Origin: Magnetococcales bacterium
Lineage (GTDB): Bacteria > Pseudomonadota > Magnetococcia > Magnetococcales > Magnetaquicoccaceae
Assembly (NCBI GenBank): GCA_015231755.1
Contig: JADGAZ010000003.1
Coordinates: 62,001-126,000, forward strand
Direction: 5' to 3'
Length of the DNA: 64,000 bases
Notes under the pieces: model-generated
The model's database searches: none
Told to the model about the DNA's origin: nothing
The model's input: the letters and a program-made list of their open reading frames with translations, nothing else
Made by a program: the position numbers and the translations under genes
Shown: piece after piece, positions 5,967 to 33,500 of the stretch
Numbering within the stretch: position 1 is the first letter of the stretch
Layout: every line of letters starts with the position of its first letter

Positions 5967-5993
5967 CCCGCGCAGTCACACACATCGTCAACC

Positions 5994-6127
5994 ATTGAAA
6001 AAAAGAAGGGGTCTGGGGAATTCATTCCCCAGGAATTTGACTTTGATTTTTAAAAAACAAAAAATTTTGTTTAAAAAAATCAGAACCCTGGGGGATGAAT
6101 CCCCCAGACCCCCTCTTTTTTTTCAAT
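5994..6127. repeat. Palindromic MITE-like element, copy 1 (between gspD and gspE)
   Basis: A 134-bp imperfect inverted repeat. The ends read ATTGAAAAAAAG and CTTTTTTTTCAAT. Inside each end is a GC-rich hairpin (CTGGGGAATTCATTCCCCAG on the left, CTGGGGGATGAATCCCCCAG on the right). The centre is almost pure A/T. The two GC hairpins are also inverted copies of each other, so the whole element can fold as one long stem. A second copy lies at 48174-48325. On the minus strand it begins a few bases after the gspD stop and ends in the gspE leader. It could act as a terminator or attenuator, or as an mRNA-stabilising structure; the mobile origin is inferred from the two copies. Confidence 0.8.
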
Positions 6128-6132
6128 AGTAT

Positions 6133-8553: not shown

Positions 8554-8609
8554 GAGTCGCTTCCAGATCACACAAAACAACGGATAAACAGGATCAACAT
8601 GGCCTGAAA

Positions 8610-9497
8610 TCAATTCCCGATGGTCAACTCGATGCTCTTCGGCTGATTGTCCCGCAACAAGTCGATCCGCAGCGTGGACATCCCTTTCAATTGATTGGCC
8701 AATTGACCGATCTTCTGGGCGTCGGTCACGGAGATGCCGTTGACCTGCTGGATCACATCATCGGGCTGCAAACCCAATTTGGTGAATTCGGTCTTGGAAT
8801 CCGGAAACTTGACCCGATATCCCAAGGAATCCTTGCCCTGATAAAACGGTGTGATGTTCACCCCCGCCAGCAGCCCCATGCCCTTGTTGAGCATGGCATC
8901 ATACTCCGGTCTTGGAATCGTTTGCACGGTCGCGACAGCAGTGGCGGGAGCCGAACCCATCACAGCCTGCGAGGCGCCGCCGCCGGCTGTTTCCGGTTTC
9001 AAGCGATCCTGCATGGCGATCCGTTCCATACGTCCCCGATTTTCAAAATAAACCGCATTGCGCTCGATACGCTTCAGATAGGCCCCATCCACCTCTTCAC
9101 CAATCTGCAAGACGATCTGGCTATTGGGATCCTTCTTGCGGGTCAAAATCGCCCAGGAAAGATGGGGCAGAATCATGGAACCGATGAGATTCAATTCCAG
9201 ATTGGAATCCACCGCCACCTCTTTGACTTCCGCTGGACGGGGGGCGGGCTTGTCTTTTTCCACCGCCGCACTCTCCCAGGGATTGAACGCCTTCAGGCCA
9301 TCCAGAACCGTGGCGCCGGAAAGCGCACGCTGGGTTGCCCCACCCCCCTTTTCGGGTTGAAGCTGAACCGGTTCGCCTACCTGAACAGGGTCTGGCAATG
9401 CCAACCATGTGACGCGGGAGAGTTCCAGGCCCATGCATGCCGCCACCAGATAAGGCGCATATCGCGCACCCAGATGGTTCCAGGAGGATGGATTCAT
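8610..9497 (-). CDS. gspC: Type II secretion protein GspC
   Basis: 295 residues from ATG 9497, preceded on the minus strand by a run rich in A and G; the longer frame to 9569 has no supporting signal. One N-terminal membrane segment (~10-28, YLVAACMGLELSRV region) is followed by a linker. The homology region comes next (LNLIGSMILPHLSWAILTRK, then VLQIGEEVDGAYLKRIERNA). The protein ends in a PDZ-like domain (FTKLGLQPDDVIQQVNGISV). GspC links the inner-membrane platform to the secretin N0 domain and helps select substrates. It is the first gene of the gspC-D-E-F set, directly downstream of a very large secreted-protein gene, from which it is separated by a hairpin at 9536-9566. Confidence 0.9.
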   Translation of the reverse strand: MNPSSWNHLGARYAPYLVAACMGLELSRVTWLALPDPVQVGEPVQLQPEKGGGATQRALSGATVLDGLKAFNPWESAAVEKDKPAPRPAEVKEVAVDSNLELNLIGSMILPHLSWAILTRKKDPNSQIVLQIGEEVDGAYLKRIERNAVYFENRGRMERIAMQDRLKPETAGGGASQAVMGSAPATAVATVQTIPRPEYDAMLNKGMGLLAGVNITPFYQGKDSLGYRVKFPDSKTEFTKLGLQPDDVIQQVNGISVTDAQKIGQLANQLKGMSTLRIDLLRDNQPKSIELTIGN

Positions 9498-9518
9498 GCG
9501 AGACCAAAAGAGAGGACT

Positions 9519-9566
9519 AAAAAAAACAGGAAGGAGTGCGGGAGCGGAACAAATCCGCTCCCGCAC
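9519..9566 (-). terminator. Hairpin and T-run between the large Big-domain gene and gspC
   Basis: Bases 9536-9548 and 9554-9566 form a perfect 13-bp stem (GTGCGGGAGCGGA with its complement) and an ACAAA loop. On the minus strand the stem is followed, after about 10 bases, by eight T's (9519-9526). It lies 10 bases past the stop of the upstream gene. The distance from stem to T-run is longer than in ideal intrinsic terminators, so it may only partly reduce read-through into gspC. Confidence 0.65.
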
Positions 9567-9575
9567 CAAGCGTGA

Positions 9576-16259: not shown

Positions 16260-18812
16260 CTATTTGAGCGCATCAATGGTGGCCTTCACCGTATCGTTCG
16301 TCTGACCCGAGGGCAGAACCACACCGGTATTGATGGTGGACCCCCCGTTCAGACGCCGCAGGATCAACACACCATCCGTGGCATCCACCGTTCCACTCTT
16401 GTCCACATCAAACACCATCCCGGCGGTATCGATGGTGGTCTTCACCGTATCATTGGTCTGACCCGAGGGTAAAACCACACCGGTATTGATGGTGGAACCG
16501 CCATTCAAACGCCGCAGGATCAATACACCATCCGTGGCATCCGTGGTGCCGCTCTTGTCCACATCCAGCGTGACGAGGTTGGTGCCGCCACTAAAGGTGA
16601 TGGTGACCGTCGAAGCGGCGCTGTTCTGCTTGCCATCGTTGACCAACAGGCTGAAGGTGTAGGTCCCGTTCACGGTCGGCGTGAAAGTCGGCTTCTGGGC
16701 CGTGGTGGAGGACAACACGATATTGGACCCGCCCGGCTGGCTGACAATCGACCAGGTGTAGCTCAAGGAGGTATCCGACGCGTCCACATCGGCACCGGAT
16801 CCATTCAGGGTCACGGCACCCGCCGTGCTCACGGTTTGGGCCGATCCGGCATTGGCGGTGGGGGCGTTGTTGACCGTCACGGTCACGGTGGACGGTGTGG
16901 CGCTGGAATGCAGTCCATCGCTCACAGTCAGACTGAAGACCAGCGAACCCACGGTACTCGGGGCCGTGAAGGTCGGTTTGGCGGCGGTGCTGGAAGAAAG
17001 GGTGACCGAACTGCCGAAAGTCTGACTCCAGGCATAGGTCAGATTGGTGCCCGCATCGGCATCCGAAGAGCCGGAACCATCCAGGGTCACGACCGCTCCG
17101 GGTGCCACCACCTGGGCGCTGCCGGCCTTGGCCACCGGACGGGTGTTGACCGTGATGGTCACGGTGGCGCTGTTGGTGCTGTTCTGGGTTCCATCGTTCA
17201 CCACCAGACTGAACACATAGGAACCGGAAACGGTCGGGGTGAAGGTCGGCTTCGAGGCCGAGGTGGACGACAGGGTCACCACCGACGTGGCGGGACTGGT
17301 CTGGGTCCAGGTGTAGGTCAACGCATCGCTATCCGTATCCTGTGAACCGGTACCATCCAGGGTGACGACACTGCCGGCTGCCACCGTCTGCGCCGAACCG
17401 GCATTGGCGACCGGTGCGTTGTTGGCGGTCACGGTGACACTCTTGGCGGCAGAGGCCACCTTGCCATCGTTGACCACCAGAGCGACCACATACTTACCCT
17501 TCACATCCGGCGTGAACGACGCGGACGGAGGCGAACTCTGGGTGATGAAACTCGAAGCGGTTCCAGCGGTCCCGGTGGCCAAAGACGATCCGGTGGGTTT
17601 GCTGGTCAGAGTCCAGATGTAGGAGGTGAGAGTGTCGCCATCCTGATCCGAGGATTTTGAACCGTTCAAGGTCACGGCACTGCCCGGGGCCACCGTGACA
17701 TCACTGCCCGGATCGGCCACGGGAGCATTGTTGGTGCCGGCCGCCGCATTCACGGTCAGAGTCATGGTGGCCGCGGAACTGTTCTCGAAGCCATCGTTGA
17801 CCACCAGGGAGAAGGTGTACGAACCCGCGGTCTTGACCACCACCGTCTGGGCACTGCCAGTCAAGGTGGAGTTGGCCGACAGCGTGGACGAACCCGAGGT
17901 GATGACCGCACTGGTGGGCATACTGGTCAAAGTCCAGGTATACGTCGAGAGGGTATCCCCATCCGCATCGGTGGAGGTGGCCCCCGTCAGCGAAACCGAA
18001 GCCTGACCGCTGCTCAAGGTCACGGTTTGATTGCCTCCCGTGGCGGCAGTCGGCGCGGTATTGGTGGAGGTATACTTGCTCACCGCCGAAGCCGTCTTGG
18101 ACCAGGGGGTGGGATTGATCACCTTGACATCATAAATCCCCGGAGCCGTGCTGGCCGGCACTGTGGCCGTCAACTGACTGGAGCTGACAAAAGTCACGTT
18201 GGTCAAGGCGACATCCGACAAGGTGACGGTGGAACCACTGACCGTCCGTTTGCCGTTGACCAGTTGAATCGTGGCTCCGCTCATGAAATTGGTGCCATTG
18301 AGGGTCACGTTCACTGCGGATTTATGGGATCCAGAGGCCGGAGAAACCGGGGACGTGGCATCCAACGTGGGCGCGCTGTTCAGAACATAGGGACCGACCT
18401 TGGTAATGGCAGTGGCTCCAACCAATCCTCCGCTATCCGAGGCGCGAATGAAAAAATAATAGCTGCCATCCGCCAGGGAACTGGCCGTCACCGTGGTGCT
18501 GTTGCTCAGGCTGCCACGCTTCAAGGTGGTGGACTCCGCCGTGGACAGGCGCGTCTCGAAGGTGGTGGTGTCCAAAGCGGTATCGGTGCTGACCACATAT
18601 TCGTAAGTAATCGACGAACCGGAAATTCCGGAAGTGGCGGCTGTCCAGGAAAAAACAATACTGCTGTTGGTCGAGGAGACCGACGCGGTATGACTCGTGC
18701 TGGCGACCCCATTCACCGCACTGCCGCTGGTAATGGCCGCACCCGCGCTCAGGGCCGATACAACCCATACCATCACGGCCAAGAATACCTGAATTGCGTG
18801 ATTACGTTTCAT
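16260..18812 (-). CDS. Secreted IPT/TIG and PKD-repeat protein with C-terminal dockerin-like modules
   Basis: 850 residues from ATG 18812, preceded by AGGA seven bases upstream; a longer frame starts at 18839 without a better signal. A signal peptide (AIQVFLAVMVWVVSALSAGA) leads into a fibronectin-like region and an IPT/TIG domain (~170-245, VTLNGTNFMSGATIQLVNGK). Five PKD-type domains follow, each opening with N.AP.A..G and DGSGS/STDADGD signatures. The last ~100 residues are two dockerin-like repeats (LDVDKSGTTDATDGVLILRR and FDVDKSGTVDATDGVLILRR, each followed by INTGVVLPSGQTNDTV). These are almost identical in protein and DNA to the modules of the neighbouring 287-residue protein. No enzyme domain was seen. 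PKD proteins are usually surface, adhesive or matrix components. Confidence 0.86.
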   Translation of the reverse strand: MKRNHAIQVFLAVMVWVVSALSAGAAITSGSAVNGVASTSHTASVSSTNSSIVFSWTAATSGISGSSITYEYVVSTDTALDTTTFETRLSTAESTTLKRGSLSNSTTVTASSLADGSYYFFIRASDSGGLVGATAITKVGPYVLNSAPTLDATSPVSPASGSHKSAVNVTLNGTNFMSGATIQLVNGKRTVSGSTVTLSDVALTNVTFVSSSQLTATVPASTAPGIYDVKVINPTPWSKTASAVSKYTSTNTAPTAATGGNQTVTLSSGQASVSLTGATSTDADGDTLSTYTWTLTSMPTSAVITSGSSTLSANSTLTGSAQTVVVKTAGSYTFSLVVNDGFENSSAATMTLTVNAAAGTNNAPVADPGSDVTVAPGSAVTLNGSKSSDQDGDTLTSYIWTLTSKPTGSSLATGTAGTASSFITQSSPPSASFTPDVKGKYVVALVVNDGKVASAAKSVTVTANNAPVANAGSAQTVAAGSVVTLDGTGSQDTDSDALTYTWTQTSPATSVVTLSSTSASKPTFTPTVSGSYVFSLVVNDGTQNSTNSATVTITVNTRPVAKAGSAQVVAPGAVVTLDGSGSSDADAGTNLTYAWSQTFGSSVTLSSSTAAKPTFTAPSTVGSLVFSLTVSDGLHSSATPSTVTVTVNNAPTANAGSAQTVSTAGAVTLNGSGADVDASDTSLSYTWSIVSQPGGSNIVLSSTTAQKPTFTPTVNGTYTFSLLVNDGKQNSAASTVTITFSGGTNLVTLDVDKSGTTDATDGVLILRRLNGGSTINTGVVLPSGQTNDTVKTTIDTAGMVFDVDKSGTVDATDGVLILRRLNGGSTINTGVVLPSGQTNDTVKATIDALK

Positions 18813-18839
18813 GGTAACATCCTGATTTTTATGGAACAT

Positions 18840-18869
18840 AAAAACTCCCCTCCCACCTCGGGAGGGGAG
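18840..18869 (-). terminator. Rho-independent terminator after the 3127-residue gene
   Basis: On the minus strand a perfect 10-bp stem (CTCCCCTCCC, 18869-18860, with GGGAGGGGAG, 18854-18845) with a 5-base loop is followed at once by five T's (18844-18840). It lies about 65 bases past the stop of the giant gene and just upstream of the start of the PKD gene, so it should separate the two transcripts. Confidence 0.8.
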
Positions 18870-18933: not shown

Positions 18934-21900
18934 TTAATTCGTCACGTTCAGGCTCAAATCCAAAGTGGCCCCTGCGCTGGTGGCGGTGACACTTCCCGTG
19001 GCATAACCACTGGTCACGCTCCAATCCGCGTTCTTGACCTTGGTGGCGCTGAACGCTTTCACCGTATAGCTCTGGTTCGGCTCCAGACCCTCCAGCTTGT
19101 ACACCCCGGTCGTCCCATTGGCGACCGCACGGTCCTTCTCCACGCCACTGGCGTCATACGCGATCACCATCGCACCACCTGCCGCGCTGCCGCCGCTGGT
19201 CACCGTGCCCTGAACGATCCCCGCCGCCTTGACCACCGTCAACGTCACGCCGGTCTGGTTCGCCCCGTTCACCGTCACGTCCGTGCCCGCCGTCCCTTCC
19301 AGCGTCCACACGTCCACCTTGTAGGTCGCGTTCGACAAACCCTTGATCGTGAACTCTCCCTTGGTGTTGGTCACCGCGCCGCCACCCATGGAATTGCCAG
19401 ACGACCAAGCGTTCACCCATGCCCCGCTCACCGCGTTGCCGCCACTCGTCACCGTGCCCTTGATCGCGTAACCCGTCAACATGGCCACGTTCAAGCCGGT
19501 GGTATTGCCGTTGATCGACACCGTTCCCACATCGTTCCAGCCGCTTGTCCAGCTCGACGCCGTCACCTTGTTGTCGCTCACCGTCACACTCTTGGTCCGC
19601 TGCGACACATACCCGCTCGAACTCACCTCCACCGTATAATTACCCGCCGGCAATCCCTCCAGCGTGTAGTTCGCATTCCCGGTCACACTCGTCCGGGATC
19701 CCCCCGTCGACGACCAAGCGTTGATCTCCACCACCTGATCCGCCGCCAAGCCGCTCACCGTTCCCGACAGCGTGTAGAATAGATTGCCCGCCGCCGTCAG
19801 ATTGAAGTCGATTCCCTTCGTCGCTCCCGCGTTGACCACACTCACCTTGCTGTGATTATCCCACACCGGCGTCACGCCACCCGTGGCGTAAAACACCCCT
19901 TGATAACCACGCCACACACCCACCACGTAGTCGGTTCCATCCGGCACGCCGCTCAACGTATAGGCCGCCGATCCGTTGGCATCCGCGGTCGCTCCCCCCA
20001 CCACGAACGCGTCCGTGGCCGGCGACCACACATCCACCCGTACCCACTCCTGGGCCTTCAGACCCGTGATGGTTCCGGCAATGCTGCCTCCCGTCGAAGC
20101 CGTGAAATCCACTCCCGTCACGTCCCCGCCGCTGGTGTTCACATCCGACTTCTTCTGCGTCATATACCCGTCCGCGCTGAAGGTCACCTTGAAGTCCGTT
20201 GCCGAACCCACACCGGCGATCGTGTACGCATCCGCACCCGATCCCGCAGCCTGCACCGCGTTTCCGCCCCAGGAATAGGTGCTGTTGGACCAGGCATCCA
20301 CCCAGCCCCATTGCGCCTTCTTCATGCCGTTCACCGTACCGGCGATCGACTTGCCGGACGACACCACCAGATCGATCGTCGCGTCACCACTGGTCACATT
20401 CACCAGCTCCGCGCTCTCCCAGGCTCCCGGCGCCTTGCCGTTGCCGGCATACGTGCCACCCTGAATCTGGCCACCCCAGATGGAAATCCGGTAATCCTCC
20501 GCCGCTTCCAGACCCTTGATCTCCACCTGATCGCTGGTACCGTTTCCATACGACACCTCTCCACCGCCCCACGACCACGTCGTCTCCGAGAAGGCATCTA
20601 CCCACGCTTTCTGACCGCTCTTCAGGCCAGACACCTTCACCGTCACCTTGCGGCCACTGCCCACCTGCATGGACACATAATGATCGCTCGACATGTCCAG
20701 CAGCGTCGCCCGATCCCAGCCCACCAGACTCCCGAGCGTGGCCGGATAGTCGCTGGCACCCACCTCTCCTTTGAAGTTGCCCGTCTTGAAGCCCCCATCC
20801 GGACCACCCACGAACAACCGGTAATCCTTCCCGCTGGCATCCAGACCCTTCAGTTCAATCAGCGCCTGACCAGTGCTGTCCGCCGTCCCCTGCTTCCAGC
20901 GACCCGCGCTCAACTCTTCCGACCAGACGTTGGCATCCACCTTCGCACCGGCGACCAGACCCGTCACCTTCACCTTCAAGGTCTTCGAGGTCACCGCCGC
21001 CAAATCCACCGCCACACCCGTCACGTTGCCGTTCAAGGTGCTCAACAGCGTCGCCTTCTCCCAACTCTTCGGACCCGACGCCCCTCCCCCGGCCACACCG
21101 CCATAATATCCCGACGGCACATCCTCCACGTCCGATTGCCAATCCAAACGATAGTCTCCCGCCTGGGCCAGACCCGATACCTCAAAGCTCACCGCTCCGC
21201 TTCCGGTCCCCACCACTTCGGTCCCGCCCCAGACCCGTTCGCTCTCCGACCACACGTTCACACGCACCTTCGTATCCTTGCCAAGACCCGCGATCGTGCC
21301 GCTGATCTTCGCTCCCGCGTTCATCAAAAAGTCCACGTTCTCCGGACTCTTGCTCCCCGAAGCGTCGATCAGCGTCGCTTCATCCTCTTTGCCCGCGTTC
21401 TTGTAATAGGTGGTGCGATACAAACCGCTCCAACCCCAGACCACACCCACATAGTTGTTGGCCGGCGCCACCGTCACTCGGTAATTGCCGTTTTCGTCCG
21501 TGTTGGCTCCGTACCAACGGCTTCCGTCCTGACTGTGAATGTCCACCCAAGTCCAGGCCAGACCGTTGTTGCTCCCGTCCGTCACACGGCCAGAAATGGT
21601 GTTGCCGGTGCTCAGGGTGAAATTCACGACCACGCCCCCGGCGGGATTCTCCTGAATCACCTCACCGGCGACGGGCTTGGCATAACCATCCTCCGCTTCA
21701 ACAAACTTGTCCTTGGCCCGTTTGTACACCCCGGTTACACCCTGGGGTTCCACCTTCACCAAAACCGGATCCGGGGACAAATAAGACTCGCTCCACACAT
21801 TGACTTCGTACCAGACCACCTTGCCCGCAGCGGGTTTGTGGATCAGGAGAGAGTATTGACCCGTGGAATCCGAAGCCTTGCCCGCGCCCTGGCGGGTATC

Positions 21901-24900
21901 GTGAGACCAAGCATTGACCCACAGATTGGCAATCCCGTTGCCCGAGCCATCCTGGATCGTGCCGGTGATGGAAAGACCACTGCCCACACGTACCAGCAAT
22001 CCCTGGGTTCCATTACCCAGATCCATCAACGGCCAAGCCACTTCGCCGGTGGCGTCCGCGGTCAGATCCTTTTCAAACGCCAAAGCCTGTTGCCCGTCGC
22101 TGGACACGGTATAACCATCGGTGGCATTGCCAACCACAGCCCCGCCGATGAATCCAGTCCCCTCGATCCAGGCTCCGGTTTGGGGATCCTGATGACCACT
22201 GGGGGAAATATTGATGTCAAAGGTGTTGTTCACCCCCTGGGTCAGATTCACCGAGGGCAGATTCAGGGTGAAATACCCCCCCTGATCCGTGGCCACACCA
22301 CCCAAAGGCGTGTTGACCCACGCATAAGGCACACCTTCATTCGCGCCATTGACCACCCGTCCGTGAATCGGCTTGCCCGCGTCCACCTGAACGCCAATGG
22401 ATAACGATTTGTCCATCAGGATATTGGTCACGGCATGGTCTTCCCACTGGGACATTACCATGCCCGGCACCACACCCGCCACCTGACCGGAAATCCCGTT
22501 ATGGGTCAGGATGTCGGTGGTACTCACCAGACTCGCCTTGACCAGGGGCCGGGTTTTGGAATCATCCTTCACCCAACGGCTCACCCAGGAGGCTTCCGGG
22601 GGGGTGATCCAACTGCCGCCCTGGAAATTCACCGCATTGCAAGACGATTGACCACTGCCACCGGTGCCGGTACCGGTCTCACAGTAGGACGGCCACACCT
22701 CCACCCGATACTCCTTGTTCGGGACCACCAGCACGGAGAAGTTGCCTTCCGCATCGGTCCGGGCGTGGAAATTGGTATCCCAATCTTTGTCATGCACGCT
22801 CACTTCGGCTCCCGTGACCGGGGCGAGCGCAGTGCCATTGGCCTGCACCACTTTGCCGGAAAGGGTCATGCCGGTCACCATGCGGGCATCCACCACCAAA
22901 GGACCAGTCACCCGGAAAATCTTGGCACTGGACCAGTCATGCACCACCTTGCCATCCCCATCCGCATAACCACCCACCAAACCACCGGGCAACTTCACCT
23001 CTTGCGGCGGGTTGGTATCCCATTTCCAGTAGGAGGTGGCAAACTCGATGCGGTATTTGCCCGGCTGCACCGAAAACTCGTACTGACCTGTGGCACTGGT
23101 ACGGGTCTCCGACCACAAACCGGAAGAACCGGTCTCTTCATCCCACTCGGGTTGCAAACGCACCGTCACATCCTGGATTCCGGTGGTGCCATCCGTGGTC
23201 ACGGTACCCCGGATGGTCAAACCGGCGATCAAGGTCGCGTTGACCGTGGTATCCGCGGTGAATGTATATTTCTTGGCGGTGTCGGAAGCACCATTCAGTT
23301 TGTTGTCCGCGGCACCGGTGCTGTAACCACCCAGACCGTCCAGCTTGACCTGTTTCTGGGTCTGCCAGTCATAATAACTGGTGCTGAAGTAGACCCGATA
23401 GACCGATCCCTTCTTGACGAAAATCTCGTAGTTGCCATTGGCGTCCGTGGTGCCCTGTGCCCATTCGGAAGTACCCGTGGTGCTTTCCCAGTCGGGTTGC
23501 AGCTCCACCCGCACACCCTGAACCGGCTGCTGATTGGCATTGACCACCTTGCCCGAAATGCGCATCCCGCTGACCATGGTGGCATTGAGGGTCGTGGCCT
23601 GCGCGAAATCGAACACTTTCGCGTCTTCGGAGCGTTCGACGGTGCCGCCTTTGTCGTCGGCATACCCGCCTTGCCCCAGCACGCCAGGAACTTTCACCAT
23701 CGACATGGTGGCGTTGTCCCAATATTCGGAGCGGAACTGGACGCGATATTTGCCCGGATAGATATCCACCGAATAGTGTCCGGCCCCATCGGTTTTCACC
23801 GAAGCCGCATCCACAACCCCGGTGTTATGCTCCCAATCGGGTTGGAATTCCACCAGGATGTTCGGCAAGGCCCCCTGACCACCACTCACCGAACCGGAAA
23901 CCGTAATCTTGGTTGTGGTCCCCGGATCGCCACCACCACCGCTGGTCTGATTGTAGGCTGAAGTCAACGACACGGTGCCCAGATTGAGATCGTTCTGAAG
24001 GTTTTGACTCATGCCCTGGGTCCTGGAAAGACCGGTGGTCTCGCCGATGGAGGCGACATAGGCCATGGCCACAAAACCGGTGCCCACATATTTGAAGGCA
24101 AAGCTGTAAGAACCGGCATCCAACTCCACGTCAAAAGCGCCGTTGGCCGTGGTATGAAACACCAACGGCGTCTGACTGTTGGCGGGATAGACGATCAGGT
24201 CGGCGTTGACCAGACCATGGGTTCCGTCGGTGAGGATGCCGGTGATCCGTTTTTTGCCCGTTGAGGAGCCGGCACCCCCCACCACCAGCACCAACTCGCC
24301 ACTGGTGGGGGAAACCTGGAAGGCGGCGGCAGTGGTGAGATTGCCACTCTGCACATTGACCGTTCCCGCGGCGGCATCGGCTTTGTACCAACCACCGGTG
24401 AAGGAACCCGCACCATTGTTCGGCCACACCCCGAGACAGTAGGTGCCATCGGCGAGCACCGCGGCAATCTTGCCCTCCTGGTCTGTACCGAAATACTGGC
24501 CTTGTCCGGAAACGCACGCGCCATTTTCAAACGGCAGAATCTGGATACCCGCATCCGCCACCGGGGTATTGCTGGCCGTGACCACCCGGAAGGAGACATT
24601 CCGGCCCTGATCCGCGGCACTGAGGGTCAACACCTGGGGATCCGTCAAGGAGGCGGTTTCCACCTGGAGATTCTTGCGGACAAATCCAGCCGCGCCGAAC
24701 GTGACATTCAGAGAGGTGACCTCATCTCCCACCGGGGCATTGAGACGATTGAACACAGTCAACAAGGCACTGCTGGTGCCGGGGGTTTCGTTGAACGTGG
24801 CGGTGGCGTTGTGGGAATGGGGCGACGCATAGGCGCTGGAGGTGTGTTCGGCCCGGGTCTGGACAAAGGCGTCCTTGAGAATCACACCCGCCGGTCCATC

Positions 24901-27900
24901 GATCCGCACCTTGCGGGCCTTGACCTGATCCGTGGTCAGGGACTTCAGCACGCCGGCGGCATCCACCGTGGCCCGCAGAGATCCCTTCCACATGCCATCG
25001 TTTTCCTGATTGTGTTCAAACACCACACCCAGGCCCTGGGCCAAATAGACATGATTGACCTGGGACGAGGACGCGGCCCCACCCTGGGGTTGATAACGGG
25101 TCTCCACCATCCGTATATGGGCCGCGTGGGTGACCTTGCTCAAAAGATCCGCATCGGTGATCGAGTCGCGCCAATGGGCGAAGTACTCGTCGTTCATCAG
25201 GTCCGTGGGCGGCACGGAATCCAGCAGATTGACGTTTCCGGTCACGGTGATCTCGGACTTGGTGATGGTCCACTGGTCGATCTTGACCTTGCCATCCTCA
25301 TCCAGGGGGAAACGGATCGAAAACTGGGAATGGGTGTACCCGTTGGTGACGGTTGCCGGCACCAACGGACTGGGCACGGTGAAATTGGAGGTGGCGAGAT
25401 CCGCGGCGGTAATGCCCGCGACGGGATCGGGTTGGGTCTTGAAACCAAAGTCAATGAAACGGGTGGTCCGGTTCTGACCCGGCTCCACTCTTTTTTCCCC
25501 GTGGAACGTCAGTCCGTTGGAGTCCAGGGTATAGTAGTTCTCTCCATGAGTGCTCTGTTCCACGGAGACGGTACGATCCATCAACGTGGCGCTGCCACCG
25601 GCCCGTGAGGGTTGAATGGAGAATTCGGTCATGGGGTTGGACGGCTGGGAGGACTGCCAGCGGCCATGCGTCACCAACGTGAGATTCGCCGGAAAGAGCC
25701 ACTGGGTCATGTCGATGGAGGTGACCGGGGTGGCAGGATCCACACAGGTGACCGTGGTGGTGGCCTGATTGGTCCCGAAGGCCACCGTCAGGGTCGCGCT
25801 TCCCGCCTTCTGACAGGTGATGGGCACCCCCGTCACGGAGGTATTCCAGGTGATCACATCGCTCCCCGAGGTGACCGTGACAGTCGGGGTACCACTGCCG
25901 GTGGGCAGGGGAAGGGTACGCCCGCCACCCACGGTCATGTTGATCGGTTCCATGGGAATGGTCGTGGTGGTGCCGCCACCTCCGCCGCTGGAGGCCGTAC
26001 ACGTGACCGGCACAGAAAAGCTGTGCGCGGCATTGTCCTGGACCAGAACGGTGGAACCACCCTCTGCGGCGCAAGTCACGGTAGCGGTGGCGTTGTTCCC
26101 GACGACCGTGATCAACGCGCTGCCCGCGTCAAACCGATAGGGGGCGACACCACCCGACACCACGAGGTCGCCGCTTCCGCCCACCACCCGATTCAACGCG
26201 GGGGGATAAACGGTCAACGGAACCGGTTGGGCCGCATTCGGAGAGAAACGAACCCGCGCGGGACGATTGTTGCTCCAGTCCCCATTGCTGCCCCCCTGGG
26301 GCCAGATCAGACCAACCGTATGGTGGGTAAAGAAACCCAGTTCATAGGTGGCGCCCGGATCGATCAACGACAACGGCCAAGCAACCTCCATGGTCTGGGT
26401 GGTGGTGTTGACGGTCAGGGTATCCGACAGCTTCACATAGGCGTTGTAGTCACGGGGATTGGCGGCGGTGTTGTACAGTCTGGCGTAAACCCCTGTGGCA
26501 TCCTGAAACAGCTCCACGGAGAAAGCCGGTCCACCCGCCTGGACAGGCATGAAGTTGACCCAATAGTTGACGTATTCACCGGTGGGCAGTTGCAAGGAGG
26601 CGCGATCGATGCGCAGATAGGCCTGACTGGCATCCCGGGCCAGATAGATCCCCGTGACATCCAGACCCGAGAAACCATCTCCCTGGTCTCCCAAAGCATC
26701 CACCAGCATCGGAGCCAAAGTGCCCCAATCCGTGGGGGCGCCATCCACGGTGATGGTGGCCTGAGGCACCACGAACACCATATCCTCCAGAATATCCGGG
26801 ATACCGTTCTGGTTGACATCCTGGTTGAGGCTTTCGTGCCGGAAATTGTAGACTCCATCCGGGAACACCCCCCCCAAGGTGGCATCGGGGAACAGTCCAG
26901 ACGGCTTGTTGCCGCTGAAAGAGGGCAGAATCCCCCGCAGGCTCACCCCGTCGAACCACTTGGCCAGATTCAGGGCCATGGAGCGGGTGCCTTCCGTGAT
27001 CTGGGCGGTCCCGGCCAAAGCGGCCTTGAAGTCGTTCAGGACTTTGGTGGCATCGGCGACTTCCCGGGCCTCCAGGGTGAAGAGATCATCGTCTTGCGGA
27101 TCGCTTTCCGCCTGAATGGATGGAATCGCAGCCAGCAAGGCGTCCGCCGCCATGTTCCAATGACTTTTGGCCGCGGCCAGATTGGTGGAGGCATACGGGG
27201 ACAAGGAACCGAAATTCGGATTGTTCAAGAAGAGTTGTTCGGTATTCACGCCCATGGCGGCATCGATGTCGATGTTCCAGTCATAAGCCTGATCGATATA
27301 CAATTGGCCCAGCATCATCCCCAGCAGACCCTTGAACATCAGCACATCGGAGTAGTCGATCTCCGTCTCATCCGGCTCCTGACTGCCCGGATCCCCCACC
27401 TTGAAAGAGGCCATATCCGTGGGAAGCTCGTTGAGCAGGGCCAACGAATCGTTGAAGGCCGGAATCATGGCGGCATTCAACCAGCCGCTGAGATCCTGAC
27501 CGGTCGGAGAGGCGATCGGCAGGGTCTTGGGACACTCCATCTTCTCCAGTCCCAGATGACGACGGGTACAACCGAATCCGGCCAACAGATCCCCCAGAGT
27601 GGCGCCGGCCGTGGCATAAGTGGTGGTTCCAGCCGAAGAGGATTGGGCGGTATTGGTCGCGAGGGCGGCAATGCGGGAAATGGCGTGCAGGACGTGGGTG
27701 GCATGCTTGCGGGCATCCCCGGCGGCAGTGGCTTTCTCATCGGCCTTGGCAAAAAAGGCATCCGCCGCCACCATCCAGCCATGGCCGAAGGCCAACGACA
27801 TGCCATAGTCCACCAGGGAGGGGACATCCAGAGTGGCGTAACGATCCATCAAGGTTCTTTGGATGGAACCAAAGGGGACGGTCGAACGCAACGCGGTGGC

Positions 27901-28317
27901 AGATCCCACAGCCAGACCGGTGGTGGGAGGATTGGTCGGAGTGACCACCCCATCCGTTTCGTGGATGTTGAGCAATCCAAGATTGAAGGCGGCTCCGGAA
28001 AGCAGTTGGAACGCATCCTTGGCGCGGTTGTTGAACCGCAAGGGCAACAGGGTTCCCTTGGTGAACAGGAACACCGACAGATCCTGATTCACCGGAAGGT
28101 CGCTGACCGAAAAGTTCCACTGACCCATCATGCCAGGGACAGGGCTGGATTCCGTGGCCTGAAGCACCGCATTGGTGCCATTCACCACCAGGATGATCGC
28201 CCTCTGGCCCACCTGACCCGAAATCGACTCGGCGTGCGCCATACCCATGGCCCCCACCAAACCGAACAGGACAAACGCCATCATCAAAACCTGTTGCTTG
28301 ATCCTTTGTCCGACCAT
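18934..28317 (-). CDS. Giant secreted protein D, carboxypeptidase-regulatory/CnaB-like repeats (3127 aa)
   Basis: Starts at ATG 28317 with GGGGAAGGATC before it. The signal peptide is MMAFVLFGLVGAMGMAHA. Residues ~30-490 are a mostly helical region unlike its paralogue, ending in a calcium-loop-like NQDVNQNGIPD (~500). Residues ~520-700 resemble a CBM9/DOMON-like beta domain (ITVDGAPTDWGTLAPMLVDA). A Gly-rich linker and Ig-like segments follow. From ~870 it aligns with the other giant protein. From ~1355 to the end it is a string of ~90-residue carboxypeptidase-regulatory/CnaB-like beta domains (SGKVVNANQQPVQGVRVELQ, DANGNYEIFVKKG). The last nine carry a V(D/N)AWS or VNVWS motif. Residues 2232-3117 are the block shared with the paralogue. 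No catalytic motif is seen; probably an extracellular fibre or matrix protein. Confidence 0.88.
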   Translation of the reverse strand: MVGQRIKQQVLMMAFVLFGLVGAMGMAHAESISGQVGQRAIILVVNGTNAVLQATESSPVPGMMGQWNFSVSDLPVNQDLSVFLFTKGTLLPLRFNNRAKDAFQLLSGAAFNLGLLNIHETDGVVTPTNPPTTGLAVGSATALRSTVPFGSIQRTLMDRYATLDVPSLVDYGMSLAFGHGWMVAADAFFAKADEKATAAGDARKHATHVLHAISRIAALATNTAQSSSAGTTTYATAGATLGDLLAGFGCTRRHLGLEKMECPKTLPIASPTGQDLSGWLNAAMIPAFNDSLALLNELPTDMASFKVGDPGSQEPDETEIDYSDVLMFKGLLGMMLGQLYIDQAYDWNIDIDAAMGVNTEQLFLNNPNFGSLSPYASTNLAAAKSHWNMAADALLAAIPSIQAESDPQDDDLFTLEAREVADATKVLNDFKAALAGTAQITEGTRSMALNLAKWFDGVSLRGILPSFSGNKPSGLFPDATLGGVFPDGVYNFRHESLNQDVNQNGIPDILEDMVFVVPQATITVDGAPTDWGTLAPMLVDALGDQGDGFSGLDVTGIYLARDASQAYLRIDRASLQLPTGEYVNYWVNFMPVQAGGPAFSVELFQDATGVYARLYNTAANPRDYNAYVKLSDTLTVNTTTQTMEVAWPLSLIDPGATYELGFFTHHTVGLIWPQGGSNGDWSNNRPARVRFSPNAAQPVPLTVYPPALNRVVGGSGDLVVSGGVAPYRFDAGSALITVVGNNATATVTCAAEGGSTVLVQDNAAHSFSVPVTCTASSGGGGGTTTTIPMEPINMTVGGGRTLPLPTGSGTPTVTVTSGSDVITWNTSVTGVPITCQKAGSATLTVAFGTNQATTTVTCVDPATPVTSIDMTQWLFPANLTLVTHGRWQSSQPSNPMTEFSIQPSRAGGSATLMDRTVSVEQSTHGENYYTLDSNGLTFHGEKRVEPGQNRTTRFIDFGFKTQPDPVAGITAADLATSNFTVPSPLVPATVTNGYTHSQFSIRFPLDEDGKVKIDQWTITKSEITVTGNVNLLDSVPPTDLMNDEYFAHWRDSITDADLLSKVTHAAHIRMVETRYQPQGGAASSSQVNHVYLAQGLGVVFEHNQENDGMWKGSLRATVDAAGVLKSLTTDQVKARKVRIDGPAGVILKDAFVQTRAEHTSSAYASPHSHNATATFNETPGTSSALLTVFNRLNAPVGDEVTSLNVTFGAAGFVRKNLQVETASLTDPQVLTLSAADQGRNVSFRVVTASNTPVADAGIQILPFENGACVSGQGQYFGTDQEGKIAAVLADGTYCLGVWPNNGAGSFTGGWYKADAAAGTVNVQSGNLTTAAAFQVSPTSGELVLVVGGAGSSTGKKRITGILTDGTHGLVNADLIVYPANSQTPLVFHTTANGAFDVELDAGSYSFAFKYVGTGFVAMAYVASIGETTGLSRTQGMSQNLQNDLNLGTVSLTSAYNQTSGGGGDPGTTTKITVSGSVSGGQGALPNILVEFQPDWEHNTGVVDAASVKTDGAGHYSVDIYPGKYRVQFRSEYWDNATMSMVKVPGVLGQGGYADDKGGTVERSEDAKVFDFAQATTLNATMVSGMRISGKVVNANQQPVQGVRVELQPDWESTTGTSEWAQGTTDANGNYEIFVKKGSVYRVYFSTSYYDWQTQKQVKLDGLGGYSTGAADNKLNGASDTAKKYTFTADTTVNATLIAGLTIRGTVTTDGTTGIQDVTVRLQPEWDEETGSSGLWSETRTSATGQYEFSVQPGKYRIEFATSYWKWDTNPPQEVKLPGGLVGGYADGDGKVVHDWSSAKIFRVTGPLVVDARMVTGMTLSGKVVQANGTALAPVTGAEVSVHDKDWDTNFHARTDAEGNFSVLVVPNKEYRVEVWPSYCETGTGTGGSGQSSCNAVNFQGGSWITPPEASWVSRWVKDDSKTRPLVKASLVSTTDILTHNGISGQVAGVVPGMVMSQWEDHAVTNILMDKSLSIGVQVDAGKPIHGRVVNGANEGVPYAWVNTPLGGVATDQGGYFTLNLPSVNLTQGVNNTFDINISPSGHQDPQTGAWIEGTGFIGGAVVGNATDGYTVSSDGQQALAFEKDLTADATGEVAWPLMDLGNGTQGLLVRVGSGLSITGTIQDGSGNGIANLWVNAWSHDTRQGAGKASDSTGQYSLLIHKPAAGKVVWYEVNVWSESYLSPDPVLVKVEPQGVTGVYKRAKDKFVEAEDGYAKPVAGEVIQENPAGGVVVNFTLSTGNTISGRVTDGSNNGLAWTWVDIHSQDGSRWYGANTDENGNYRVTVAPANNYVGVVWGWSGLYRTTYYKNAGKEDEATLIDASGSKSPENVDFLMNAGAKISGTIAGLGKDTKVRVNVWSESERVWGGTEVVGTGSGAVSFEVSGLAQAGDYRLDWQSDVEDVPSGYYGGVAGGGASGPKSWEKATLLSTLNGNVTGVAVDLAAVTSKTLKVKVTGLVAGAKVDANVWSEELSAGRWKQGTADSTGQALIELKGLDASGKDYRLFVGGPDGGFKTGNFKGEVGASDYPATLGSLVGWDRATLLDMSSDHYVSMQVGSGRKVTVKVSGLKSGQKAWVDAFSETTWSWGGGEVSYGNGTSDQVEIKGLEAAEDYRISIWGGQIQGGTYAGNGKAPGAWESAELVNVTSGDATIDLVVSSGKSIAGTVNGMKKAQWGWVDAWSNSTYSWGGNAVQAAGSGADAYTIAGVGSATDFKVTFSADGYMTQKKSDVNTSGGDVTGVDFTASTGGSIAGTITGLKAQEWVRVDVWSPATDAFVVGGATADANGSAAYTLSGVPDGTDYVVGVWRGYQGVFYATGGVTPVWDNHSKVSVVNAGATKGIDFNLTAAGNLFYTLSGTVSGLAADQVVEINAWSSTGGSRTSVTGNANYTLEGLPAGNYTVEVSSSGYVSQRTKSVTVSDNKVTASSWTSGWNDVGTVSINGNTTGLNVAMLTGYAIKGTVTSGGNAVSGAWVNAWSSGNSMGGGAVTNTKGEFTIKGLSNATYKVDVWTLEGTAGTDVTVNGANQTGVTLTVVKAAGIVQGTVTSGGSAAGGAMVIAYDASGVEKDRAVANGTTGVYKLEGLEPNQSYTVKAFSATKVKNADWSVTSGYATGSVTATSAGATLDLSLNVTN
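18968..21624 (-). repeat. 2657-bp direct repeat, copy 1 (3' part of giant gene D)
   Basis: The same sequence occurs at 30546-33202, exactly 11,578 bases away and in the same orientation. I found no mismatch where I compared the two copies by eye, and the 886 encoded residues are identical. Sequence divergence is sharp at both edges: just past base 21624 the copies read CACGAC and GACCGG, and just before 18968 they also differ. Both edges lie inside coding sequence. Confidence 0.93.
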
Positions 28318-28376
28318 GATCCTTCCCCTTGTGTGAAAGACTGCTGTATTGCTTTGGTGTAGGTCCTACGCGGGCA

Positions 28377-29477
28377 TCACGGTTGGGTGCCCTGCGCCGC
28401 CTCACGCTGACGTTTGATTTCAGCCTGTCGTTTGGCCTCGGCATTGCGCGCCGCCGCCGCTTTTTGTTCGGCCACAATAGCCGCCTGCCGGGAGGCCTCG
28501 GCGCGTCGGGCGGCCTCGACCTGGGTGGACTGATCACGCACCAGGGCAGCTTGCCGGTTGACCATGGCCCGGTTTTCGATCTGTTGTTCCGCCGGAGTCT
28601 TGAGACTGGCCAGATCCTGACGCAACTGCTGCAATTTCAATTGCTCCGGGGCCATCATGCCTTGAAAATTCTGTTCGCTGCGGGCCTGCTGCTGCTCCAG
28701 GGTGGCGAGTTTTTCCACCAGTTCCCGGGAATTGCCCTGGCCCGAGGCCAGTTGCATCTGGGTACGGGCCTTTTCGGCCTCCAGAGCCTGACTCTCGCCG
28801 GCAGCCTTGCGTTGAATCAGGGAAATCGACGCCTCGGTCTCGGCAATGGCGGCCATGAGCTGGGCCGGTCCCCGCACGCTTTGCGTATTGATGTGGTTTG
28901 GAATGCGGGTATTGGATGGATCGGCACCGGCAGGATCCTTGACGATCTCGGTGCGGGAGGCGGGAGTGGTTCCCGTTTTCTCCGGGGAGGCGGCGGTGAC
29001 CGGGGGGGCTTTGCCAGCCTCTCCGGTTTTGTCGGCAGCAGTTTCGGTAGCCTCCGCCGGTCCGACCCGTTCGTAGCGGGTCGCGCTCAGGCTGCCTTTC
29101 TTGAAAACCTTGACCTGAACAACCTTGGAATCCCCTTTTTCGGTACTCCCTTTTTCACCCTTCTTGCCCGCCGCGTAAACCACCACGTGGCTTTGACCAC
29201 TCAGCAGACGCTTCAAGGCCGACTCCAGAGGCACCCCATCGAAACTCATGGAAAGGGTGCCCTTGACCTCCGGATCCAACAAAAACGGAATGCCCACCTT
29301 GTTGGCCACCTGTTCCAGGGCCACCCGGATGGGGGTCGAACGGAAGGCAACGCTCAACTTTCCCTGACGATAGACAACCCCGTCGGGAACCGATGCTGCG
29401 GCAGCCATCACGGAAACGGGCGCGAACAGCGCCCAGAAGACCAAAGATACAAAAGAAATCAATCGGAATTGATTCAT
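28377..29477 (-). CDS. Secreted/periplasmic STN-domain protein with coiled-coil tail
   Basis: 366 residues from ATG 29477, preceded by GGAGGGGAG, with a signal peptide (LISFVSLVFWALFAPVSVMA). Residues ~30-110 look like an STN (secretin/TonB short N-terminal) domain: KLSVAFRSTPIRVALEQVAN, VGIPFLLDPEVKGTLSMSFD, PLESALKRLLSG. A Lys/Gly/Thr/Pro-rich linker (~115-200) is followed by a long Ala/Glu/Gln/Arg-rich helical region (~215-366), probably coiled coil (TEASISLIQRKAAGESQALE). There is no secretin pore or TonB barrel domain. It lies 59 bases upstream of the giant gene D and is probably co-transcribed with it. A role helping export or assembly of the giant protein is possible but inferred only from position. 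Confidence 0.75.
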   Translation of the reverse strand: MNQFRLISFVSLVFWALFAPVSVMAAAASVPDGVVYRQGKLSVAFRSTPIRVALEQVANKVGIPFLLDPEVKGTLSMSFDGVPLESALKRLLSGQSHVVVYAAGKKGEKGSTEKGDSKVVQVKVFKKGSLSATRYERVGPAEATETAADKTGEAGKAPPVTAASPEKTGTTPASRTEIVKDPAGADPSNTRIPNHINTQSVRGPAQLMAAIAETEASISLIQRKAAGESQALEAEKARTQMQLASGQGNSRELVEKLATLEQQQARSEQNFQGMMAPEQLKLQQLRQDLASLKTPAEQQIENRAMVNRQAALVRDQSTQVEAARRAEASRQAAIVAEQKAAAARNAEAKRQAEIKRQREAAQGTQP

Positions 29478-29551
29478 GCACTCCCCTCCCTCCGGGAGAA
29501 AAACCATTGGAAAGATCACATCTTGCGGGGTGATGCATCCAGGCTCGATTC

Positions 29552-29579
29552 AGGTTAACATTTACGCAAGAAATGTCAA
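29552..29579 (-). promoter_or_regulatory. Candidate sigma-70 promoter upstream of the STN gene
   Basis: On the minus strand a perfect TTGACA (29579-29574) is followed, after 16 bases, by TAACCT (29557-29552), about 75 bases before the STN start. It would drive the STN gene and the giant gene D. The -10 box is a weaker match. Confidence 0.45.
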
Positions 29580-29622
29580 AACAAAAAATACCCCTCATCC
29601 TGATTACAAAGTGGAAACCTTG

Positions 29623-30375
29623 CTACATGGCGCTCAGGGTAAAATCCAAGCCCACCCGCAACCCTTTGGCCGTAGCCTGACCCTTGGGGGATTCGGCGAA
29701 ATAGGCTCCCGGAATCTCGAAAGAACGTGTGGATTTGTTCCAATCGATGACGGCACTGGTAATTTTTTGATGCGCGAACGGATTTTCCAGGATGGCCTGA
29801 CTGAAGCGAATGCGACCGGAACCCTGGCCCACCACAGCGGATGCGGCTTGCAAACGCAGCGTCACCGCCTGATCCATCCACAACTCCAGGGTCAGCGGGG
29901 CAAGCACCAACTGGGTCACCCGTGACCAGAAAGAAAATACCCCCGTTTGTCCTCCCCCATCGTGACGGGGAAGAATGCCTTGGATCATGCCGCCGACCTC
30001 CTCCTCAAGGGAGTCTGGTAACGACTGTGCATCCGCACGGTAACGATACAGGCGCAGATGCACATCCTTGAAAATCGCTTCTTGAACCGCCTTGCTCTGA
30101 AAGGCCAGAAAACGGCGCCGTTGAATGGTGAACTCCCGGGCCGCAAAAGATTTGACCGGTCGGCCATCCCGCAGTTCCGTAAAAACCGGCCCACCCACCG
30201 CATACCGGGAAAACGCATCCTGGATGGTCGCGTCAGCAGCCTGTTCCGACACGCCGGAAATCTGATAATCCCGCAGCACCAAAAACACCACGCCGCCAAG
30301 ACACCCCACCAGGAGAAACTTCAACCCCATCAGGCCCAGGAACCGCCAGGACTGGATGCCCACTCTCCCGATCAT
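29623..30375 (-). CDS. Single-pass membrane protein, LptC-like in outline
   Basis: 250 residues from ATG 30375 (AGGG upstream); the open frame runs 34 codons further upstream without a good start signal. One N-terminal membrane helix (LKFLLVGCLGGVVFLVLRDY, ~18-37) is followed by a beta-rich periplasmic region with repeated short strands (FAAREFTIQRRRFLAFQSKA, VHLRLYRYRADA, ALDLEL-like stretches). A single anchor plus a beta-strand periplasmic domain recalls LptC and related beta-taco proteins, but the resemblance is weak and I do not assign function. It sits between the two giant secreted-protein genes on the same strand. Confidence 0.65.
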   Translation of the reverse strand: MIGRVGIQSWRFLGLMGLKFLLVGCLGGVVFLVLRDYQISGVSEQAADATIQDAFSRYAVGGPVFTELRDGRPVKSFAAREFTIQRRRFLAFQSKAVQEAIFKDVHLRLYRYRADAQSLPDSLEEEVGGMIQGILPRHDGGGQTGVFSFWSRVTQLVLAPLTLELWMDQAVTLRLQAASAVVGQGSGRIRFSQAILENPFAHQKITSAVIDWNKSTRSFEIPGAYFAESPKGQATAKGLRVGLDFTLSAM

Positions 30376-30443
30376 CGTGAAAGCCCTGTCATCCTGGAAT
30401 TCTGGCACCCTTGGACAAACACGAAAAAATCTCACAGAAGTTC

Positions 30444-30507
30444 CCCGCACGTCCTTTTGGTTGCCTGTCGTTTGCATTCAACAGAAAACAACCCAAGGAC
30501 GTGCGGG
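30444..30507 (-). terminator. Long hairpin after the 2803-residue gene
   Basis: CCCGCACGTCCTT (30444-30456) pairs perfectly with AAGGACGTGCGGG (30495-30507). The ~38-base loop contains further short pairing (GGTTG with CAACC). It starts 14 bases past the giant gene stop on the minus strand, and a T-rich stretch (ATTTTTTCG) follows about 20 bases beyond the stem. It is probably a transcript end or a 3' stabilising structure. A 16-base palindrome (30507-30522) overlaps the stop codon. Confidence 0.5.
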
Positions 30508-30520
30508 ATCCATCGATGGA

Positions 30521-33500
30521 TCAGTTCAATCCCAGATCCAATGCCGCCCCTGCGCTGGTGGCGGTGACACTTCCCGTGGCATAACCACTGGTCACGCTCC
30601 AATCCGCGTTCTTGACCTTGGTGGCGCTGAACGCTTTCACCGTATAGCTCTGGTTCGGCTCCAGACCCTCCAGCTTGTACACCCCGGTCGTCCCATTGGC
30701 GACCGCACGGTCCTTCTCCACGCCACTGGCGTCATACGCGATCACCATCGCACCACCTGCCGCGCTGCCGCCGCTGGTCACCGTGCCCTGAACGATCCCC
30801 GCCGCCTTGACCACCGTCAACGTCACGCCGGTCTGGTTCGCCCCGTTCACCGTCACGTCCGTGCCCGCCGTCCCTTCCAGCGTCCACACGTCCACCTTGT
30901 AGGTCGCGTTCGACAAACCCTTGATCGTGAACTCTCCCTTGGTGTTGGTCACCGCGCCGCCACCCATGGAATTGCCAGACGACCAAGCGTTCACCCATGC
31001 CCCGCTCACCGCGTTGCCGCCACTCGTCACCGTGCCCTTGATCGCGTAACCCGTCAACATGGCCACGTTCAAGCCGGTGGTATTGCCGTTGATCGACACC
31101 GTTCCCACATCGTTCCAGCCGCTTGTCCAGCTCGACGCCGTCACCTTGTTGTCGCTCACCGTCACACTCTTGGTCCGCTGCGACACATACCCGCTCGAAC
31201 TCACCTCCACCGTATAATTACCCGCCGGCAATCCCTCCAGCGTGTAGTTCGCATTCCCGGTCACACTCGTCCGGGATCCCCCCGTCGACGACCAAGCGTT
31301 GATCTCCACCACCTGATCCGCCGCCAAGCCGCTCACCGTTCCCGACAGCGTGTAGAATAGATTGCCCGCCGCCGTCAGATTGAAGTCGATTCCCTTCGTC
31401 GCTCCCGCGTTGACCACACTCACCTTGCTGTGATTATCCCACACCGGCGTCACGCCACCCGTGGCGTAAAACACCCCTTGATAACCACGCCACACACCCA
31501 CCACGTAGTCGGTTCCATCCGGCACGCCGCTCAACGTATAGGCCGCCGATCCGTTGGCATCCGCGGTCGCTCCCCCCACCACGAACGCGTCCGTGGCCGG
31601 CGACCACACATCCACCCGTACCCACTCCTGGGCCTTCAGACCCGTGATGGTTCCGGCAATGCTGCCTCCCGTCGAAGCCGTGAAATCCACTCCCGTCACG
31701 TCCCCGCCGCTGGTGTTCACATCCGACTTCTTCTGCGTCATATACCCGTCCGCGCTGAAGGTCACCTTGAAGTCCGTTGCCGAACCCACACCGGCGATCG
31801 TGTACGCATCCGCACCCGATCCCGCAGCCTGCACCGCGTTTCCGCCCCAGGAATAGGTGCTGTTGGACCAGGCATCCACCCAGCCCCATTGCGCCTTCTT
31901 CATGCCGTTCACCGTACCGGCGATCGACTTGCCGGACGACACCACCAGATCGATCGTCGCGTCACCACTGGTCACATTCACCAGCTCCGCGCTCTCCCAG
32001 GCTCCCGGCGCCTTGCCGTTGCCGGCATACGTGCCACCCTGAATCTGGCCACCCCAGATGGAAATCCGGTAATCCTCCGCCGCTTCCAGACCCTTGATCT
32101 CCACCTGATCGCTGGTACCGTTTCCATACGACACCTCTCCACCGCCCCACGACCACGTCGTCTCCGAGAAGGCATCTACCCACGCTTTCTGACCGCTCTT
32201 CAGGCCAGACACCTTCACCGTCACCTTGCGGCCACTGCCCACCTGCATGGACACATAATGATCGCTCGACATGTCCAGCAGCGTCGCCCGATCCCAGCCC
32301 ACCAGACTCCCGAGCGTGGCCGGATAGTCGCTGGCACCCACCTCTCCTTTGAAGTTGCCCGTCTTGAAGCCCCCATCCGGACCACCCACGAACAACCGGT
32401 AATCCTTCCCGCTGGCATCCAGACCCTTCAGTTCAATCAGCGCCTGACCAGTGCTGTCCGCCGTCCCCTGCTTCCAGCGACCCGCGCTCAACTCTTCCGA
32501 CCAGACGTTGGCATCCACCTTCGCACCGGCGACCAGACCCGTCACCTTCACCTTCAAGGTCTTCGAGGTCACCGCCGCCAAATCCACCGCCACACCCGTC
32601 ACGTTGCCGTTCAAGGTGCTCAACAGCGTCGCCTTCTCCCAACTCTTCGGACCCGACGCCCCTCCCCCGGCCACACCGCCATAATATCCCGACGGCACAT
32701 CCTCCACGTCCGATTGCCAATCCAAACGATAGTCTCCCGCCTGGGCCAGACCCGATACCTCAAAGCTCACCGCTCCGCTTCCGGTCCCCACCACTTCGGT
32801 CCCGCCCCAGACCCGTTCGCTCTCCGACCACACGTTCACACGCACCTTCGTATCCTTGCCAAGACCCGCGATCGTGCCGCTGATCTTCGCTCCCGCGTTC
32901 ATCAAAAAGTCCACGTTCTCCGGACTCTTGCTCCCCGAAGCGTCGATCAGCGTCGCTTCATCCTCTTTGCCCGCGTTCTTGTAATAGGTGGTGCGATACA
33001 AACCGCTCCAACCCCAGACCACACCCACATAGTTGTTGGCCGGCGCCACCGTCACTCGGTAATTGCCGTTTTCGTCCGTGTTGGCTCCGTACCAACGGCT
33101 TCCGTCCTGACTGTGAATGTCCACCCAAGTCCAGGCCAGACCGTTGTTGCTCCCGTCCGTCACACGGCCAGAAATGGTGTTGCCGGTGCTCAGGGTGAAA
33201 TTGACCGGCACACTGCCCCGCTCATCTCCCAGAATCAATTCACCAGCCTTGGGACGATACATCCCGGTGGTGTCATCCACGGCATGGGAGGTGTCGATGG
33301 CATAGACGCCGACCACACCCTGAGCCTGAACCTTCACCAGCTTCGCTTCCGGAGCCAGATACCCCTCTTTCCAGAGGCTGACTTCATACCACACCGTGAC
33401 GCCCTCAGCCGGAGTCGCCACCCGGATGGCATATTCCCCACTGCCCCCGGTGGCCGCACCACCGCCGACGCCACTTTCGTGGGACCAAGCGTTGACCCAG

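Follow-up and report, generated by a model that had tools for sequence, protein, structure and literature searches.

How do two giant genes that have diverged over most of their length come to end in the same 2657 bases? The question arises from a window of 64,000 nucleotides in the draft genome of an uncultured member of the Magnetococcales (G000:C3:62001-126000; the draft comprises 3.84 Mb in 44 contigs), in which the two genes are separated by two small ones (Table 1). Both encode carboxypeptidase regulatory-like (PF13620) repeat proteins, gene 1 scoring 203 bits and gene 2 215 bits against a curated cutoff of 32.3; the shared block alone scores 96.5 bits. The answer, we believe, is very probably recurrent intrachromosomal gene conversion between two ancient tandem paralogs, confined to their 3′ ~2.66 kb.

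Table 1. Coordinates of features at the locus, numbered from the first base of the window
Feature	Position	Strand	Basis or remark
Gene 1, giant CarboxypepD_reg-repeat protein, 3127 aa	18934..28317	-	ORF and translation; Pfam PF13620, E 5.6e-61
Gene 2, paralog of gene 1, 2803 aa	30521..38932	-	ORF and translation; Pfam PF13620, E 1.1e-64
Homogenized block, gene 1 copy, nine repeats, 885 codons	18968..21624	-	Exact match
Homogenized block, gene 2 copy	30546..33202	-	Exact match
Gene 1 diverged 5′ part, 2231 codons	21625..28317	-	Clusters with gene 1 orthologs of other species
Gene 2 diverged 5′ part, 1910 codons	33203..38932	-	Clusters with gene 2 orthologs of other species
380-aa protein between the copies	28377..29519	-	Weak secretin N0/STN similarity; beside the pair in relatives having the pair
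284-aa protein between the copies	29623..30477	-	Beside the pair in relatives having the pair
PKD-domain protein with dockerin-like tail, downstream; synteny anchor	16260..18839	-	
Terminator-like stem-loop after gene 1	18845..18869	-	
Type II secretion genes gspC, gspD, gspE and gspF, downstream, same direction	3202..9569	-	

When the two copies are aligned base by base, all 2657 positions are identical at an offset of 11,578, as the preliminary description had it, and the run is maximal, extending no further on either side. It forms the 3′ end of both genes and encodes 885 full codons, within one codon of the 886 residues counted earlier. The nine repeats noted before are also present; they are beta-sandwich repeats of ~95 residues each with a ‘WVDAWS’ type core, and the motif recurs at block positions 26, 120, 229, 341, 441, 528, 632, 736, and 819. 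A match of this kind is not due to chance, and even at 99% per-base identity, the probability of an unbroken run of 2657 bases is ~10^-11.6. The remainder of the two genes is merely homologous, again as described, with ~48% protein identity upstream and 58% DNA identity in the upstream parts that can be aligned. Both borders had been called abrupt and placed within coding sequence. This holds for the 5′ border, past which same-offset identity is ~56% directly and ~25 to 30% further out, but the 3′ border is soft, with ~22 bases before position 18968 still alike in both copies (repeat family D2, 98% over 300 nt). The giant proteins terminate in ...SAGATLDLSLNVTN and ...SAGAALDLGLN, respectively, and there is no visible similarity between the two loci past the stop codons.

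The perfection of the match has to be read in light of how the genome was assembled. Many contig ends in G000 overlap by exactly 55 bases, and it is consequently a short-read draft from a de Bruijn assembly with k=55; given the same overlaps, a long-read origin is not supported. Both 16S and 23S rRNA are missing from the assembly, and its short contigs C43 and C44 (L131 and L132) appear as N. Because short reads cannot span a repeat of 2657 bases, the two recorded copies are probably one graph segment printed twice, in which small differences could hide; the assembly graph at the locus would take the form entry-R-loop-R-exit, with a sole through-path that prints R twice. The assembler, which we infer from k only to be metaSPAdes, collapses small variants and bulges by design (PMC8021871). 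With a k=55 short-read assembly and a probably collapsed repeat, the true similarity can therefore be no higher than the recorded 100% identity, which may be partly assembler-made.

It is accordingly quite plausible, if short of probable, that the copies are near-identical (~97 to 99.9%) and that their differences were collapsed into a consensus, a reading that is compatible with conversion and only makes it less extreme. The relatives, of which the named ones are Magnetococcales metagenome bins, lend this some weight. In the sister species G006 (bin nW5bin1), the last 140 bases of contig C82, at the 5′ border of the gene 2 block, match gene 1 at 139 positions, such that homogenization there is incomplete. 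In G009, the tails of genes 1 and 2 were assembled separately, on contigs with the same first 55 bases, after which they differ at 34 of 537 positions (503/535 identical, ~94%); the differences form a clustered mosaic that includes an identical run of 151 bp (P ~1e-4 under random placement). On the other hand, G000 itself gives no direct sign of hidden variants, and repeats undergoing frequent conversion, rRNA operons among them, typically show complete or almost complete identity (PMC8022953).

The gene pair and its two small neighbors are present, whole or in part, in G006, G005, G009, G007, and G004, and the block has no match in four other genus members (G001, G003, G008, and G010). Both loci were compared across relatives, as had been proposed earlier. 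In a tree of the ~1000 residues preceding the block, the gene 1 copies of G000, G006, G005, and G009 form one clade and the gene 2 copies of G000, G006, G009, G004, and G007 another, each with 100/100 support. Forcing the G000 copies together upstream is rejected (AU 2.3e-5; delta lnL 1132), as is forcing the G009 copies together, with an AU value far lower than for G000. The block tree, computed without G006 gene 2 as only its ends are assembled, groups sequences by species instead (G000 copies, 99/96; G009 copies, 91/87), and both a gene 1 clade (AU 8.7e-53) and a gene 2 clade (AU 2.5e-6) are rejected. Judged from these phylogenies, the duplication predates the species split, and the block has undergone concerted evolution in several species while the 5′ parts remained orthologous. 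The suggestion of a new domain-block duplication is not supported, since both full-length genes are old paralogs with orthologs in the relatives.

Divergence estimates are in keeping with the trees. Between G000 and G006, the 5′ parts have dS values of 0.54 and 0.56 with dN of 0.11, and the block has dS 0.27 and dN 0.033 and differs by 8% in DNA. Within G000, genes 1 and 2 differ in their 5′ parts by a dS of 1.28, which is near saturation, and in the block by a dS of 0, to which the assembly caveat applies; subject to the same caveat, synonymous sites have been homogenized too, which goes beyond what protein selection alone would do. If the identity is real, the absence of changes at ~649 synonymous sites limits divergence since the last homogenization to ~0.005 or less (95%), which is less than 2% of what separates G000 from G006. 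We considered whether the block dS of 0.27 might signal exchange between species, but neighboring genes range from 0.22 to 0.71 and the value is not unusual. GC-biased conversion was likewise set aside: GC at 4-fold sites in the block is only 0.01 to 0.07 above the expectation from the 5′ parts, and the same slight excess is seen in G002, a species with an unpaired gene.

A single recent block duplication or transfer in the G000 lineage would readily leave zero differences between the two G000 copies, but we regard it as very improbable. G006 also has the block in two copies and with almost identical borders, the 5′ one lying 15 bp from that of G000, and the situation in G005 and G009 is similar; because each species has its own version of the block, one event cannot explain them. 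Homogenization has thus recurred in independent lineages (G000, G006, G009, and partly G005). As for the earlier proposal of very recent gene conversion, there is good support for conversion that keeps the nine C-terminal repeats uniform, but the process is recurrent across related species and more than a single very recent event.

Still less probable is an assembly artifact, in which the block belongs to one gene alone and its presence in the other is the work of the assembler. The G000 draft, with its 55-base overlaps, its lack of 16S and 23S rRNA, and reads unable to cross 2.66 kb, is of a kind in which such a copy might arise, but assemblies of other species made independently and with different k-mers (127 in G006, 77 in G005, and 55 in G009) break or split within the same block. 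Contig C19 of G006 carries all of gene 1, including the block, at 94% protein identity to G000, followed by both small neighbors, and stops 127 bases into the 3′ end of the gene 2 block, all 127 of which match gene 1. Contig C82 carries the 5′ part of gene 2 and stops just within the block start. C82 therefore holds the 5′ junction of gene 2, and C19 its 3′ junction along with both junctions of gene 1, such that all four unique junctions are present and the contigs end about one k-mer into the block, as expected for a true two-copy repeat. The copy offset in G006 is 11,648 (11,578 in G000), and the coverages given in the titles of the two contigs are similar, at 36.8 and 41.9. A G005 contig likewise begins with 77 bases identical to part of the gene 1 block end, and in G009 both tails are present and distinct; in G006 and G005 the second copy is visible at its ends only. 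The two-copy repeat is real, given that the break falls within this block, a single k-mer beyond the border, in independently made assemblies from other species. The earlier concern about an assembly error is thus borne out only insofar as short reads and a probable collapse may have contributed to the 100% identity, and the locus illustrates that an identical block in a short-read draft can be a genuine repeat whose perfect identity is perhaps partly assembler-made.

Programmed DNA shuffling, with a site-specific recombinase or retroelement exchanging the block, would account for the sharp 5′ border within coding sequence but is scarcely credible, given that the window has no inverted repeats of 100 nt or more, that a scan of 22 window proteins gave no recombinase or reverse transcriptase, that the 3′ border is soft, and that the outcome is homogenization and not diversification.

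Recurrent gene conversion between the paralogs would proceed by RecA-type homologous recombination between direct repeats ~8.9 kb apart, and is presumably RecA-dependent and nonreciprocal. The 5′ halves may have diverged below the identity needed for recombination, so that conversion tracts would stop there; the 5′ border is the point where paralog identity falls from 100% to below 60%, and the 3′ border comes shortly before the stop codons, beyond which the genes are unrelated. In the Salmonella tuf genes, conversion is processive, and its tracts are halted once identity runs out (PMC5485169). Evolution is slower in the C-terminal repeats than in the 5′ parts, so the repeats may never have left the range in which recombination operates, and these more constrained repeats would then be rehomogenized repeatedly. 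Selection for identity of the block, through a shared partner or co-assembly, is possible but not required. A stronger version, in which long-lasting concerted evolution of half a gene has a nearly fixed intragenic border and selection keeps the C-terminal arrays of the two giant surface proteins identical for the same partner or co-assembly, with the N-terminal parts free to diverge, we regard as rather unlikely.

Direct repeats of this length could in principle also delete the DNA between them, as was pointed out before, but the simple product of such a deletion is not seen in any sampled relative. In G030, from another family, a single gene lies between a 380-aa-type fragment and the PKD gene. 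The one giant gene of G002 belongs to the gene 2 clade and has a 380-aa-type gene and then the PKD gene after it, and we rejected it as a simple deletion product because the 380-aa neighbor is retained between the giant gene and the PKD gene. More distant third copies of the block occur at other loci (L026, G005:C456; L028, G004:C117; L030, G007:C15), and the matches in C117 and C15 extend to the contig end.

The C-terminal repeats probably have a common structural or export role, and the N-terminal parts would differ in function. The block is predicted to be all-beta (mean pLDDT 61); Foldseek searches with the model returned generic multidomain beta-sandwich proteins alone (TM ≤0.2) and nothing specific, and a PDB sequence search gave only a weak cellulosomal scaffoldin match (E 0.009). 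The translated N termini of both giant proteins are signal-peptide-like, and the proteins are probably secreted. Gene 2, the 284-aa and 380-aa genes, gene 1, the PKD-dockerin gene, a dockerin-like gene, a Big_1/invasin-domain gene, and gspC, gspD, gspE, and gspF all read in one direction. From this position and the N termini, we would guess that the giant proteins are exported by the adjoining type II secretion system. The 380-aa protein, with matches to PF21305 (E 0.004) and PF07660 (E 0.008) that do not reach the cutoff, is conserved beside the giant genes and is possibly a dedicated export helper. The 284-aa protein has one hydrophobic stretch near its N terminus and no family match in a domain search.

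Dockerin-like C-terminal tails of ~100 aa (15344-15637 and 16272-16565) are common to the 314-aa and 859-aa proteins, and tails 71 to 78% identical occur in at least four further G000 proteins (contigs C4, C13, C20, and C23). No cohesin (PF00963) partner for them was found in the G000 genome, and they are perhaps sorting tails and not parts of a cellulosome. Very long open frames run antisense to gene 2 (31430-38566, + strand, 2378 aa) and to the Big_1 gene (10527-15098, + strand, 1523 aa); most likely they simply reflect the codon composition of repeat genes with high GC.

Our searches of open-access papers turned up no earlier report on this gene pair. The tufA and tufB genes are not close neighbors. 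In Salmonella, they resemble the pair described here as same-chromosome duplicates that are kept alike, with tracts limited by the ends of homology, but they are homogenized as whole genes, in an event observed in the laboratory (PMC5485169). The babA and babB genes of Helicobacter pylori (PMC4552749) are also surface-protein paralogs with near-identical terminal and divergent parts and intragenomic recombination. They encode an unrelated protein, however, and conversion there also yields chimeras and couples to phase variation, whereas here the 3′ part alone is homogenized and no phase variation is seen. Among prokaryotes, 26 genes with long-lasting concerted evolution have been described in which, as here, paralogs are recurrently closer within species than orthologs are between them; the mtrA-1/mtrA-2 pair, in which gene fusion and domain shuffling are also involved, is comparable (PMC6053082). 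Unlike the present pair, those genes are mostly members of stable complexes or pathways, and the words “surface” and “adhesin” are absent from that paper. In E. coli, intragenomic recombination likewise maintains full or almost full identity among the rRNA operons, which are multikilobase repeats, although they are RNA genes in seven operons and are homogenized as whole genes (PMC8022953). Measured against these systems, the locus is a clear example of concerted evolution, a process already well documented, here seen in a new gene pair and limited to one half of the genes. With a converting and a nonconverting half in one pair and a border that is nearly the same in two species, it is a clean natural case for asking how far sequences must diverge before recombination stops, and what maintains the identity, selection or homology alone.
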